DNA from: Marinobacter sp. LA51
GTDB taxonomy: Bacteria; Pseudomonadota; Gammaproteobacteria; Pseudomonadales; Oleiphilaceae
Direction: 5' to 3'
NCBI RefSeq assembly: GCF_030297175.1
Contig: NZ_AP028070.1
Coordinates: forward strand, 1,178,001 to 1,242,000
DNA: 64,000 nt
Shown: positions 25,052 through 29,494 of the stretch, piece after piece
Layout of the letters: each line of letters begins with the position of its first letter
Numbering within the stretch: position 1 is the stretch's first letter
Translations under genes and position numbers: made by a program
Notes under the pieces: generated by a model
Told to the model about the DNA's origin: nothing
Database searches by the model: none
The model's input: the letters and a program-made list of their open reading frames with translations, nothing else

Positions 25052-25495
25052 ATGATGAACAAAGAGCTGATGACAGCAAAAATTCTGGAAGCCAAAGCGA
25101 CCCAAGGTGTGTCCTGGGAAAAATTGGCTTCGGCGATTGGCCTGTCTCCCGTGTTTACCACCTCGGCCTGCCTGGGCATGAACAGCCTGACGGAAGACAA
25201 GGCCTTTGCTCTGTGCGAAACCCTGGGCCTGGATAAGGAAGTCGCCGAGACCCTGCAGGTGTGCCCCAAAAAATCCTGGGACGACGCCATTCCCCAGGAC
25301 CCTCTTATCTACCGGCTGTACGAAATTGTCGGTGTGTATGGTGACACCCTGAAAGAGCTCATCCACGAGAAGTTCGGTGACGGCATCATGAGTGCGATCG
25401 ATTTCACCATGGATGTGGAGAAGGAAGAAAATCCGAAGGGTGATCGGGTGGTTGTGACTATGAATGGGAAGTTTTTGCCTTATAAGGCTTGGTAG
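25052..25495 (+). CDS. cynS: cyanate hydratase (cyanase)
   Basis: 147 residues, nearly the length of E. coli CynS. It converts cyanate and bicarbonate to ammonia and carbon dioxide as a decamer. The catalytic residues expected from the family are present as R88 and E91 in PLIYRLYEIVGVYG and S114 in GIMSAIDF. The N-terminal helix-turn-helix-like domain (WEKLASAIGLSPVFTTSACLG) is intact. The gene stands alone without cynT or cynR, so bicarbonate supply and regulation must come from elsewhere. The upstream sigma-54 promoter suggests control by nitrogen status. Confidence 0.95.
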   Translation: MMNKELMTAKILEAKATQGVSWEKLASAIGLSPVFTTSACLGMNSLTEDKAFALCETLGLDKEVAETLQVCPKKSWDDAIPQDPLIYRLYEIVGVYGDTLKELIHEKFGDGIMSAIDFTMDVEKEENPKGDRVVVTMNGKFLPYKAW

Positions 25496-25834: not shown

Positions 25835-27534
25835 GCAACTTGCTCCCTGTTCTGTTTGGCGGTGCGCTTGGTTTCGTCGATCATTTCGCGGTTACTGGCA
25901 CCGGGTTTGACGATGGGCCAGACGTTTTCTTCACGGGCAATGGCAACGTGCAGCAGCATGGGGCCATCGTAGGCAAGGATGGTTTCGATGCCGCGGCGGA
26001 TCTGATCGGTGCGTTCGATGTGCAGGGCAGGGATGTCGAACGCGCGGGCCATGGCGACGAAGTCCGGGTTGTCGTTAAGGTCGATCTGGCTTTCCCGATT
26101 GTTGTAGAACAGCTCCTGTTGCTGGCGGACCATGCCCAGGCACTGGTTGTCCAGGATGATCATTTTCAGCGGCAGGTTGTAGCGGCGAATAGTGGCCAAC
26201 TCCTGGGCGTTCATCATGAACGAGCCATCGCCCGCGACGTTGATAACCGTGCTGCGGCGATCGGAAAACTGCGCGCCAATGGCGGCGGGCAAGCCAAAGC
26301 CCATGGTGCCCAGGCCACCGCTGGAGAGATGGTGGCGCGGGTGGTCGAACTGGTAATGCTGGGCCACCCACATCTGGTGTTGGCCAACGTCGCAGGCAAT
26401 AACGGTGTCGTCCGGTGCAATACGGGACAATTGCCGCACGAAGGCCGGTCCGGTGATGGGCGCCAAAGGCTCCTCGTTGTCCGCGGCGCTGAAGCCGCCG
26501 GTGGTGTTCCAGGTGCGGCACTGGGTCTGCCAGTCGCCGATTGCCAGCGGTGACGATTCAAGCTCGGCGGTCATTGCCTTCAGAATGCCGTTCAAATCAC
26601 CGCGCAGGGCCAAATCCACCGAACGCAGTTTATTGATCTCGGCGGCATCGGCGTCGATGTGGATGGTTCGGGCGTTGGGGGCAAAGGTGTCCAGTTTGCC
26701 AGTGGCCCGGTCATCCAGGCGGGCGCCGATGACCAGCAGCAGGTCGCATTCGTCGACGGCGCGGTTGGCGGCGCGGGAGCCGTGCATACCCAGCATGCCC
26801 AAGTGATGGGTGCTGTGTTTACCGCCGTTACCAATGCCTTTCAGGGTGACAACGCTGGGCAGGGCGGAGGTTTCGGAAAATTCGCGGAAGTTGTCTTCAG
26901 CGTGGGCCAGGCTCACACCGCCACCGCTGTAGAGCAGGGGCTTTCGGGCCGAGCGCAGCATGGCCACCGCTTCGGAAACATCGGTGCTGGTGGTAGCGGC
27001 ACTCGCGGTCTGAGGCTCGCATGAGGGTGTTGGAGCCGATGCCAGCAATACGTCTTTGGGAATGTCGATCCATACCGGCCCGGGGCGTCCGCTCTGGGCA
27101 AGATCAATCGCTTCGTCCATGATCTCGGCCAGCTCGTCGGTGCTGTCCACCAGGTAACTGTGTTTGACGATGCCCAGGGTCATGCCCAGAACGTCGGTTT
27201 CCTGGAAGGCGTCGGTGCCGATCAGGCCGGAGGGCACTTGCCCGGTGATCACCAGCATCGGGATGGAATCCCGGTGGGCGTTGGCAACACCGGTGATCAG
27301 GTTGGTGGCACCCGGCCCGGAGGTGGCGATGCATACGCCCAATTGGCCACTGGCCCGGGCATAGCCGTCGGCGGCTAAGGCGCATCCCTGTTCGTGGCGA
27401 CACAGCACGTGTTCGGTTCCGACATCATCCACGAGTGCATCGTAGAGCGGCATGATGCAGCCACCCGGGTAGCCGAAAACGGTGGAGATGCCGTGGCGAT
27501 GGAACGCGTCGAGGATGTACTGTGCGCCGTTCAT
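25831..27534 (-). CDS. ilvG: acetolactate synthase II catalytic subunit
   Basis: 567 residues. The thiamine-diphosphate glutamate is in CRHEQGCALAADGYARASG. The central domain has the FAD-contacting text LGMLGMHGSRAANRAVDECD, and the TPP/Mg motif GDGSFMMNAQELATIRRYNLPLK is complete. It condenses two pyruvates, or pyruvate and 2-ketobutyrate, at the start of valine, leucine and isoleucine synthesis. Its SD (AAGGA) lies just after the attenuator U tract. Only ilvGM is present here; ilvE, ilvD and ilvA do not follow as in enterobacteria. Intact reading frame throughout. Confidence 0.93.
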   Translation of the reverse strand: MNGAQYILDAFHRHGISTVFGYPGGCIMPLYDALVDDVGTEHVLCRHEQGCALAADGYARASGQLGVCIATSGPGATNLITGVANAHRDSIPMLVITGQVPSGLIGTDAFQETDVLGMTLGIVKHSYLVDSTDELAEIMDEAIDLAQSGRPGPVWIDIPKDVLLASAPTPSCEPQTASAATTSTDVSEAVAMLRSARKPLLYSGGGVSLAHAEDNFREFSETSALPSVVTLKGIGNGGKHSTHHLGMLGMHGSRAANRAVDECDLLLVIGARLDDRATGKLDTFAPNARTIHIDADAAEINKLRSVDLALRGDLNGILKAMTAELESSPLAIGDWQTQCRTWNTTGGFSAADNEEPLAPITGPAFVRQLSRIAPDDTVIACDVGQHQMWVAQHYQFDHPRHHLSSGGLGTMGFGLPAAIGAQFSDRRSTVINVAGDGSFMMNAQELATIRRYNLPLKMIILDNQCLGMVRQQQELFYNNRESQIDLNDNPDFVAMARAFDIPALHIERTDQIRRGIETILAYDGPMLLHVAIAREENVWPIVKPGASNREMIDETKRTAKQNREQVA

Positions 27535-27561
27535 GATCGATGTTTTCCTTTTTGTGGCGGC

Positions 27562-27597
27562 AAAAAAAGCCCCCGGGACCTTTCGGTGCCGGGGGCT
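27562..27597 (-). terminator. attenuator terminator of ilvGM
   Basis: On the minus strand AGCCCCCGG (27597–27589) pairs with CCGGGGGCT (27576–27568), capped by an ACC-GAAA-GGT tip, and is followed by a seven-U run. It lies between the leader peptide stop and ilvG. A second CCGGGGGCT at 27655–27647 inside the leader gene can pair with the same upstream arm and so act as antiterminator. Confidence 0.88.
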
Positions 27598-27620
27598 CTT
27601 GGTGTCTTGTCAGGTTGTTG

Positions 27621-27713
27621 CTATCTCACCCGCTTGTCCACGCAAAAGCCCCCGGACGGTACCACGACCACCAGGACAAGCTTCACTAGGACAATCACTG
27701 CGCTGAGATTCAT
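27621..27713 (-). CDS. ilvL: ilvGM leader peptide (attenuation peptide)
   Basis: A 30-codon frame, too short for routine gene calling. It opens MNLSAVIVLVKL and continues with four consecutive valines, for ten valines, four leucines and one isoleucine in all. This is the composition expected of a peptide that senses charged branched-chain tRNAs. The valine run (around 27674–27660) lies at the base of a possible pause hairpin, GCTTGTCC (27681–27674) with GGACAAGC (27639–27632). A stalled ribosome would melt that hairpin and free the antiterminator. The peptide itself needs no other function. Its ribosome site is weak. Confidence 0.88.
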   Translation of the reverse strand: MNLSAVIVLVKLVLVVVVPSGGFCVDKRVR

Positions 27714-27757
27714 AAGATCAACAATCTGCTCTGAATTCGTTAACTGCGTAAGGTTAG

Positions 27758-27787
27758 AATCTACCCCACGTTTTTAACCGGTTGCAA
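27758..27787 (-). promoter_or_regulatory. candidate sigma-70 promoter of ilvL-ilvGM
   Basis: TTGCAA (27787–27782), an 18-base spacer and TAGATT (27763–27758), about 45 bases upstream of the leader start. The -35 box lies within a perfect 12-base palindrome CGGTTGCAACCG (27790–27779), which might be a regulator site. Confidence 0.4.
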
Positions 27788-27808
27788 CCGTTTCTTGTCA
27801 GTTTTTTC

Positions 27809-27843
27809 GTGCGGGCTCGGTGGCTGTGCCATCCGGCCCGCAC
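27809..27843. repeat. strong hairpin downstream of the chemoreceptor gene
   Basis: GTGCGGGC pairs with GCCCGCAC, and the inside continues as CGGTGGC-TGT-GCCATCCG with one bulged base, giving about 15 pairs. T residues precede and A residues follow it on the plus strand, so neither strand has the U tract of a classic terminator. It separates the chemoreceptor stop from the ilvL promoter. Confidence 0.6.
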
Positions 27844-27868
27844 AAAACGATCCTATTAGCTGCGAATT

Positions 27869-29494
27869 CTAGCTGCGAATTCGGCCAGCCATTTCACGGG
27901 CCTTTCGCGCCATGTTGTCCAGCTCCGGGACAGTGCGCAGGTTTTCTTCAGCCGCTTCGCTCATGCTTTCCGAGATCTCGGCCACTTCGGTTACGTTGCG
28001 GCTGATGTCTTCGCTGACGCTGGTCTGCTGCTCGGCTGCGGTGGCTACCTGAGTGGTAGCGTCGTTGACGCTGGCCATACGCTGGCTGATTTCGCTCAGA
28101 GTGTGTCGGACCGCTTCTACCGATTCGCTGCTTTCCTCGGCAACCACGCCGGAGGCCTGCATGTATTCGGTGGCATCCCGCGAGGCGGAGCCAATGGTCT
28201 CAATGATCTGGTCAATTTCCACCGTGGCTTCCTGGGTTTTGGCGGCCAGGTTGCGGACTTCATCCGCCACTACGGCAAAGCCACGTCCGGCTTCGCCGGC
28301 CCGGGCTGCTTCAATGGCGGCGTTCAGGGCCAGCAGGTTGGTCTGATCGGCAATTTCTCGAATTACCCGCATGACGTCGCCAACCCGGCGGCCATCACTG
28401 GCCAGTTGGTTCACCGTTTTGGCCGAGCTTTGGATCTGGTCGGTCAGCCGTCGCATGCTCTCGACCGCCTGGTTGATCTGCTGGTCAGCCTGCTGGGTCT
28501 GGCCCGTGGTCTCTGTCACCTGAGAGGCTACGGAAGCCGCGTGGTGGGCTACATCCTGTGCCGTTGCCGACATCTCGTTCATGGCAGTGGCAATTTGATC
28601 AATACGCTGGTGGGCCTGGTCAGACTGGGACGATACCCGGTCGGCATTGTTTCGGATCAGCGCTCCGGTATGCTCCATCTGGGTGGCGTTGCTCTGCATC
28701 AGACCACCGGTTTCGGCCAGGAAGCTGTGTAGCAGACGGGAGGTGTCTGCCAGTTTGCCGAGCTCATCGTTTCGGGTCAGGGTAGTGGGCTCAGACAGGT
28801 CACCCTTGCCCAGCTTATCGAGTTGTCCAATGAGCTGCTGGGCCGGTCGCACCACAGATCGGATCAGAACGATGACGCAGGCCAGGGTGCCGAGCAGAAT
28901 CGCGGCGAACAGCAGGGTACCGATCTGCCAGGTGCTGGATTGTACCGATTCTTTCAGGTCACCAGCGTAAGTCAGACTGGACGCACGGATTAGGCTCGAT
29001 GCCTCTTCAACCAGTTTGGCCGGCTCGCGGTCGATACCGGCTACCGCGGCGTCGCCGGCGGCGTGTTCATAGCCAGACTCCACAAAAGCTTCGAATCCTT
29101 TGCGGTAGGCGCTGCCCATACGCTCATGCGATCTGCGGAACTGGGTCATCAGCTTCTTGGCTTCCGGGTCTGTTAGCTTCGGAATCAGTTCGTTCAGCTC
29201 AGACTGTATTTCTGCTTCCCGCTCCTGGAACCGACCCCAGTATTTCTCGCGCTGGCCGTCGTCATCGCCTCGTATCAGAACGTTTTTCCATTCCTGAACC
29301 TGGGTCTTGAAACTGGCCAGTATGTCCTGCGCTTCAAGCGCATGAACCATTTCGCTACCAACCAGGCTGCTGTAATCGTCACCTGTTTCGAGCGAAGCCT
29401 TGAAATAGAAACCTGCCACAATCGCAATAACCAGGTTGGCGATAAATACGATGGTGAGAATGCGGTTGAGAATACTGCGGGAGTACCAATTCAT
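27869..29494 (-). CDS. methyl-accepting chemotaxis protein
   Basis: 541 residues. TM1 at about 10–30 and TM2 at about 191–211 frame a mostly helical periplasmic sensor of the four-helix-bundle kind. A HAMP domain follows (about 212–264), then a long cytoplasmic coiled coil with the hairpin tip [20 protein letters not shown]. There is no NWETF-type pentapeptide at the C-terminus, so CheR/CheB are recruited by other means. The start at 29494 has an AAAGG ribosome site; an earlier in-frame codon at 29608 would lie upstream of the sigma-28 promoter and is rejected. The ligand is unknown. Confidence 0.9.

Follow-up and report, generated by a model that had tools for sequence, protein, structure and literature searches.

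The ilvGM operon of Marinobacter sp. LA51 is very probably controlled by ribosome-mediated attenuation of transcription, through an ilvL-type element located immediately ahead of ilvG in the 64,000-nt stretch of contig NZ_AP028070.1 analysed here (hereafter the window, to which all positions refer). The anatomy of the element, its conservation, the covariation of its stems and its homology with ilvL elements from other gammaproteobacteria were all observed. A first-pass annotation had proposed an attenuator of the ilvL type, complete with leader, terminator and antiterminator, and this was upheld by the anatomy, by the presence of leader and terminator in all 33 genomes of the genus that have ilvG, and by covariation. 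The switch looks real and of the same inherited kind as Escherichia coli ilvL, and not a new invention. These results widen the known range of a textbook RNA switch, which now includes a marine genus along with further families of the same order, and they also correct which of the hairpins matter.

The ilvG gene (27534-25831, minus strand) encodes the large subunit of acetolactate synthase II. Its product matched the NCBIfam model of the acetolactate synthase 2 catalytic subunit above the cut-off (NF006524, 851.7 bits, cut-off 738) and three TPP-enzyme domains were found in Pfam. It is followed by ilvM (25834-25556, minus strand), encoding the small regulatory subunit, the start of which overlaps the ilvG stop codon (ATGA). 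IlvM scored 55.7 bits with Pfam ACT_5, above the cut-off, and 56.4 bits with NF008362, the model of the enterobacterial small subunit, under the cut-off of 68. An orthologous ilvG with ilvM is what stands downstream of the leader. When the E. coli genes ilvM, ilvE, ilvD, ilvA, ilvC, ilvH, leuA and leuB were compared with the window, only ilvM was found, among the best matches, adjoining ilvG; the matches of this genome in the families holding ilvD and ilvE sit elsewhere, away from ilvGM. Both observations support the annotated presence of ilvGM without ilvEDA, the search for ilvA having covered the window. The cyanase gene cynS (25052-25495, plus strand) is convergent and lies just past ilvM. 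The ilvI-type gene of the same genome showed no branched-chain leader in the 600 nt upstream, read by eye. The nearest named genomes were those of Marinobacter species, with 93% identity for the IlvG of M. alexandrii (80 loci, a sample of a larger set).

Ahead of the operon there is a short ORF of 30 codons, MNLSAVIVLVKLVLVVVVPSGGFCVDKRVR (27713-27621, minus strand), with its ATG at 27713 and a TAG ending at 27621, rich in the amino acids of the pathway and predicted to be translated. It contains 10 valines in 30 residues, including one VVVV, encoded by six GTG, three GTC and one GTA codons, and its richest 12 residues comprise 7 Val, 3 Leu and 1 Ile. In 200,000 draws with residue frequencies taken from five neighbouring ORFs, at least 10 valines in 29 residues were obtained with a frequency of 1e-5 (a figure for one ORF), and VVVV was absent from all of them. 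The minus-strand reading and these draws agree with the first-pass description of a valine/leucine-rich leader of 30 codons before ilvGM, with ten valines, four of them consecutive. No clear Shine-Dalgarno sequence was seen ahead of the ATG when the sequence was read directly, and the leader matched neither any Pfam family up to E 10 nor any NCBIfam model.

Between the leader and ilvG lies an intrinsic terminator (27600-27562, minus strand), with the 5' arm AAGAGCCCCCGG (27600-27589), the 3' arm CCGGGGGCTTTT (27576-27565), a GAAA-capped inner stem and a tail of seven T (U in the RNA) at 27568-27562. Folding and covariation both supported this GC-rich terminator with a seven-U tail, which had been recognised beforehand. 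Likewise, the reported second copy of part of the terminator 3' arm, CCGGGGGCT, is present and exact at 27655-27647, inside the leader ORF. This copy is included in the 5' arm of the putative antiterminator, CCGGGGGCTTTTGCGTG (27655-27639, minus strand), also inside the leader ORF; the 3' arm, CACCAAGAGCCCCCGG (27604-27589, minus strand), overlaps the 5' arm of the terminator. The third element is a leader-wide 1:2 (protector) hairpin (27709-27623, minus strand), obtained from the minimum-energy fold and covariation. Its helices (27709-27700/27633-27623, 27694-27679/27650-27634 and 27675-27667/27660-27651) pair codons 2-16 with codons 18-31 and sequester the antiterminator arm. The folding of the minus-strand RNA, which had been suggested as a check, gave -71.3 kcal/mol for the full 173-nt leader-terminator (z -3.3, 1 of 200 shuffles as good), with the leader hairpin and the terminator formed. 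When the terminator 3' arm was absent, as in an unfinished transcript, the antiterminator fold was obtained, with a stability that was not unusual (z -0.54).

An ilvG-type gene was found in 33 of the 37 searched genomes of the genus, in each case with the leader and the terminator. The other four are G006, G015 and G025, with more distant ilvG homologues only, and G032 (62% complete), with no match. The leader was also found in 46 of 46 rows of an enlarged set, where those 33 genomes were joined by nine others of the genus, three named genomes and a single one from a sister genus; rows L038 and L039 appear to repeat the genomes of L011 and L021. At the codon level, in the 37 distinct leaders of equal length (three of other length, L030, L032 and L033, being excluded), there was little or no variation in codons 15-17 (GTG or GTC), 21 (GGG) and 25 (GTG). 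The valine-rich leader expected in related genomes was thus present in each of the 33, with near-invariant valine codons at 15-17. The mean fixation at four-fold synonymous sites was 0.90 in codons 13-26 and 0.74 in codons 2-12, as expected if the RNA of the former stretch is under selection. A minor observation was made at L035 (the same genome as L137), where about 267 nt (L035:234-501) separate the ilv terminator from ilvG and a hydrophobic ORF of 70 residues, MLNVNNKLIIAVLSLIIVAVI..., starts at L035:302 and enters ilvG in another frame.

The pairing of each structure was followed in alignment A1, of 42 distinct sequences. In the terminator, 98.6% of the cells were paired. Three pairs had both partners changed, a count equalled or exceeded by 6 of 500 shuffles, and the double-change cells were 33, a number that none of the 500 shuffles reached. 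For the leader-wide hairpin the share of paired cells was 92.3%, a value inflated by having derived the hairpin from the window's own sequence. It gave 8 double-change pairs, where shuffles gave 5.2 and matched that number in 17 of 500 cases, and slid versions at most 7. Its double-change cells numbered 27, which none of the 500 shuffles (7.7) equalled; sliding the hairpin gave at most 13. Within the genus, 93.3% of the antiterminator cells were paired with no double changes and not above shuffles, that is, this pairing is conserved and not co-varying, and its pair C66-A126 is mismatched in 20 of the 42 sequences.

The arms GCTTGTCC (27681-27674) and GGACAAGC (27639-27632), proposed in the first-pass annotation as a pause hairpin, are indeed present. 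Nevertheless, only 84.8% of their cells were paired and three pairs had single double changes; the innermost three pairs are kept in 41-42 of 42 sequences, while disruptions affect the central pair 36-79 in 28 of the sequences and the pair 34-81 in 9. In addition, GGACAA has a better partner in the first TTGTCC copy (27694-27689), within the leader-wide hairpin backed by covariation. This pause hairpin was consequently rejected as poorly conserved, the covarying fold being the one in which the entire leader ORF is self-paired.

The antiterminator was also compared between taxa. Its arms are GUGCGGGG:CCCCGCAC in E. coli, CGAGGG:CCCUCG in Colwellia, CGCUCGGGG:CCCCGAGCG in Zobellella, GCGGAG:CUCCGC in L140 and CCGGGGGCUUUUG:CAAGAGCCCCCGG in the window. 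For 36 representatives from 49 loci, own arms gave a sum of -652 and swapped arms one of -583 (sd 12; 0 of 20,000 permutations as good). When the window, L117, L138 and L050 were removed, 7 of 20,000 permutations were as good with the 32 left, the remaining 19,993 being weaker. This pooled comparison is the only strong one across loci and the related sequences in the pool are not independent. Shuffles of the antiterminator at single loci, which keep base make-up only, were not significant at many loci (99 of 200 as good at L140). Pairing and cross-taxon co-variation thus argue for an antiterminator that excludes the terminator and overlaps both the leader ORF and the terminator 5' arm. As regards the annotated competition between both arms, the fold of the unfinished transcript and the co-variation between taxa speak for it and the lack of double changes within the genus does not.

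The hairpin could alternatively be a constitutive terminator or insulator, ending for instance the read-through from the chemoreceptor gene which lies upstream on the same strand and ends at 27869, with the ORF being incidental. We consider this extremely improbable, since the ORF, its frame, the valine run and the competing arm are all kept in the 42 distinct sequences and the arms pair better with their own than with swapped partners. Moreover, the leader is separated from the chemoreceptor gene by a conserved promoter-like site. This candidate promoter (27787-27758, minus strand) consists of TTGCAA (27787-27782) and TAGATT (27763-27758) with an 18-nt spacer. Over 46 aligned upstream regions, GGTTGC and parts of gGgTAgATTcTA are kept at 90%, with L005, L031 and L117 deviating. 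A rule-based scan of 27500-27900 flagged no promoter and no terminator.

On the attenuator reading, the transcript would start about 40 nt ahead of the leader, as the conserved promoter-like site suggests, and the leader would be translated. With charged Val-tRNA and Leu-tRNA plentiful, the ribosome would pass the Val/Leu run and cover the antiterminator arm (codons 18-27) while the RNA polymerase makes the terminator. After release of the ribosome, the leader ORF would refold on itself, the terminator at 27600-27562 would form and transcription would end before ilvG. If the charging of Val-tRNA or Leu-tRNA falls, the ribosome would stall among the Val/Leu codons, no further than about codon 17, and open the leader-wide hairpin. 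CCGGGGGCTTTTG would then be left free to pair with CAAGAGCCCCCGG, no terminator would form and ilvGM would be transcribed. The predicted response is to starvation for valine first, leucine second and isoleucine little.

A stall model at equilibrium, with an assumed ribosome footprint of 12 nt covered downstream, gave an antiterminator probability of about 1 with the A site at codons 1-16, 0.57 at codon 17 and 0 at codons 18-27, suggesting that the Val/Leu run is where stalling would switch the outcome. With a footprint of 10 or 14 nt, the switch shifted by about one codon. The model also permits the antiterminator without a ribosome or with the ribosome at codons 28-31, and termination in the fed state therefore needs a kinetic argument, based on the co-transcriptional order of folding. 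Applied to E. coli ilvL, it gave an uneven pattern, high at codons 18-19 and near 0 at codons 12-17, which makes it a weak witness.

Attenuation could also be real with the leader sensing leucine, or a general slowing of translation, rather than mainly valine. The leucine codons CTA, CTT and CTG at positions 9, 12 and 14 fall within the stall-sensitive stretch, in which the synonymous choice may be fixed for RNA reasons. However, valine is the largest class in the richest 12 residues and its codons at 15-17 are the near-invariant ones, so that we regard this reading as rather unlikely, although it deserves some weight, and a switch responding mainly to valine is preferred.

The origin of the element was also studied. 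The first-pass annotation suggested an independent use of the mechanism, and some observations are in line with a convergent invention in the Marinobacter line. The Marinobacter leader did not reach the gathering cut-off of Pfam PF08046 IlvGEDA_leader (61.5 bits for E. coli IlvL); RF02744 Rev39_5p_UTR, which ranked first in Rfam for this stretch, gave 22.8 bits, far under its cut-off of 88; and the leader-bearing IlvG proteins do not form a single clade, that is, one side of a single branch, in any of 200 bootstrap trees (0%). However, the covariance model R1, built with 36 ilvG leaders, none of them from Marinobacter or its sister genus, found the element in the window with 47.9 bits and E 4.6e-11, the next match having 13.4 bits. 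Over the whole genome the same element was again the best (E 2.7e-9; next 25.2 bits), and, of the 39 matches up to E 10, the others (at most 25.2 bits) correspond mostly to the terminator end of the model. Outside its training set, R1 gave 54.7 bits at L030 and 54.9 bits at L117. The E-value of RF02744, still the best Rfam family, was 5.6e-5.

The distribution of the element bears on the same point. In the order, which we take to be Pseudomonadales in GTDB, 21 of 21 loci outside the genus carry the terminator, with 20 leaders called by script and that of L135 by eye and R1 (53.8 bits); 390 genomes of the order were searched, and the order- and class-level searches sample larger sets. Of the 30 named loci L040-L069, 24 have the leader-terminator directly before ilvG, as do 3 of 8 further class-level loci. 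Enterobacteria, Vibrio, Photobacterium, Shewanella, Colwellia and Aliikangiella are among the taxa with this arrangement. At L041 and three more class-level loci, leader and terminator are found at the head of the operon, before ilvC, where R1 gave 34.8 bits (L041:2825-2962), 34.6 bits (L173:1581-1710), 20.6 bits (L174:1555-1635) and 12.4 bits (L172, leader by script). An ilvL-type leader and terminator head ilvC-ilvG-...-leuA operons in L041, L173 and L174. No leader was found in the Pasteurellaceae loci L063, L067, L069 and L144 (with L175), nor in L139 (with L171), L057 and L070, the last with a terminator-only R1 match (16.3 bits); L053 had a weak one (20.0 bits).

In the midpoint-rooted tree of 64 IlvG proteins (near-copies excluded; L031 and L033 dropped as too short), leader presence required 4 label changes against 12.0 in shuffles, with L094 scored as having none although an ivbL-type leader is present there. 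Long branches are present in the fork joining Marinobacter with L123, L135, L138 and L140, which has a support of 88/91 and is drawn open. The R1 match and the clustering of leader-bearing IlvGs in the tree favour shared descent with enterobacterial ilvL, as judged from sequence comparison. An independent origin was rejected as very unlikely and the suggestion of the first-pass annotation did not hold.

Compared with ilvL of E. coli K-12 (ilvGMEDA, b3766, L036), both elements have a branched-chain leader of 30-32 codons before ilvG, an antiterminator arm encoded immediately past the branched-chain codons and a CCCCCG...CACCGAAAGGTCC...GGGGG-U terminator. In contrast, only ilvGM is downstream in Marinobacter, the run is of Val and Leu with almost no Ile (VVVIII in E. 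coli), the tail of the leader differs and the antiterminator is longer (13 bp plus GTG/CAC). The leader before an ilvB-like gene of Trabulsiella (L094), which we take to be of the ivbL type, is also valine-rich, has a run without Ile (AAVVVVRVVVVVGNAP) and precedes an acetolactate synthase gene, but it belongs to another gene branch, with another tail and terminator, and gave only 16.5 bits with R1 (E 0.015). Outside enterobacteria, PMC2659441 lists, with a literature reference, a leader peptide and attenuator for Shewanella ilvG. As in Marinobacter, these stand before ilvG, but the leader is Ile-rich and ilvMEDA or ilvMDA is downstream (L061, L062).

No Rfam family reached its gathering score in the window, and none of the 8 weak Rfam matches at 27500-27800 was a T-box or riboswitch. 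RF02744 bears the title 'Soft rot Enterobacteriaceae Rev 39 5'UTR', in which an attenuator is not named. Its model matches the ilvL region of E. coli (L036:449-741) with 157.4 bits, so that this family appears to describe the ilvL element itself by a different title. Rev_39 is listed as a 5' UTR of ilvG in PMC4710047. The attenuation of branched-chain operons across proteobacteria is already in print, and PMC6123439 and PMC1183508 cite a comparative study by Vitreschak and colleagues (2004). Among the matches listed, no paper dealt by title with a Marinobacter ilvG leader or attenuator, although the 2004 study may cover more, and none by title with control codons and operon content. The attenuator is uncatalogued, the copy in the window being flagged by neither Pfam nor Rfam.

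Finally, the amino-acid content of the leaders was compared with that of the operons. The richest 12 residues hold 6 Val, 1 Leu and 3 Ile in the E. coli leader, and 8 Ile with no Val or Leu (L127) or 5 Ile, 2 Val and no Leu (L134) at ilvGM-ilvA loci. Upstream of ilvG, the leaders of L127 and L134 are nearly pure isoleucine (NIIIRIIAEIIIG and NIIIAAEIVIG), and that of L173, whose operon includes leuA, reads SLVVLVLITSPPG. A strict rule by which leader codons follow operon content was rejected: the ilvGM-only loci L118-L122, L126 and L130-L133 keep Ile-rich leaders. Since many ilvGM-only loci of other families are Ile-rich and the two ilvGM-ilvA loci are of one genus, the tracking of operon content by leader composition is suggestive, not strict.

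Acetolactate synthase II of E. coli is not inhibited by valine. We tentatively propose, as a possibility for which the odds are somewhat against, that the ilvG attenuator may have been retuned to the output of its operon: of valine type in an ilvGM-only line including Marinobacter, nearly pure Ile with ilvA, Leu/Val-rich with leuA and with its valine codons multiplied in tandem in one genome. Transcriptional feedback by valine might in this way replace the valine inhibition missing from the enzyme. The arrangements ilvGM, ilvGM-ilvA, ilvCGM-leuA and ilvGMEDA offer a natural series for asking how the amino-acid sense of an attenuator tracks the genes that it controls. In the family of L135, an ilvG-type match was obtained in 1 of 61 genomes, the query genome itself, and no sibling of its leader was found. 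This leader (L135:573-872, G251) is long and contains, before an ilvL-type terminator, a 15-nt unit coding VNVSN repeated 5.3 times (723-802), a tandem array that results in a long run of GTC valine codons.
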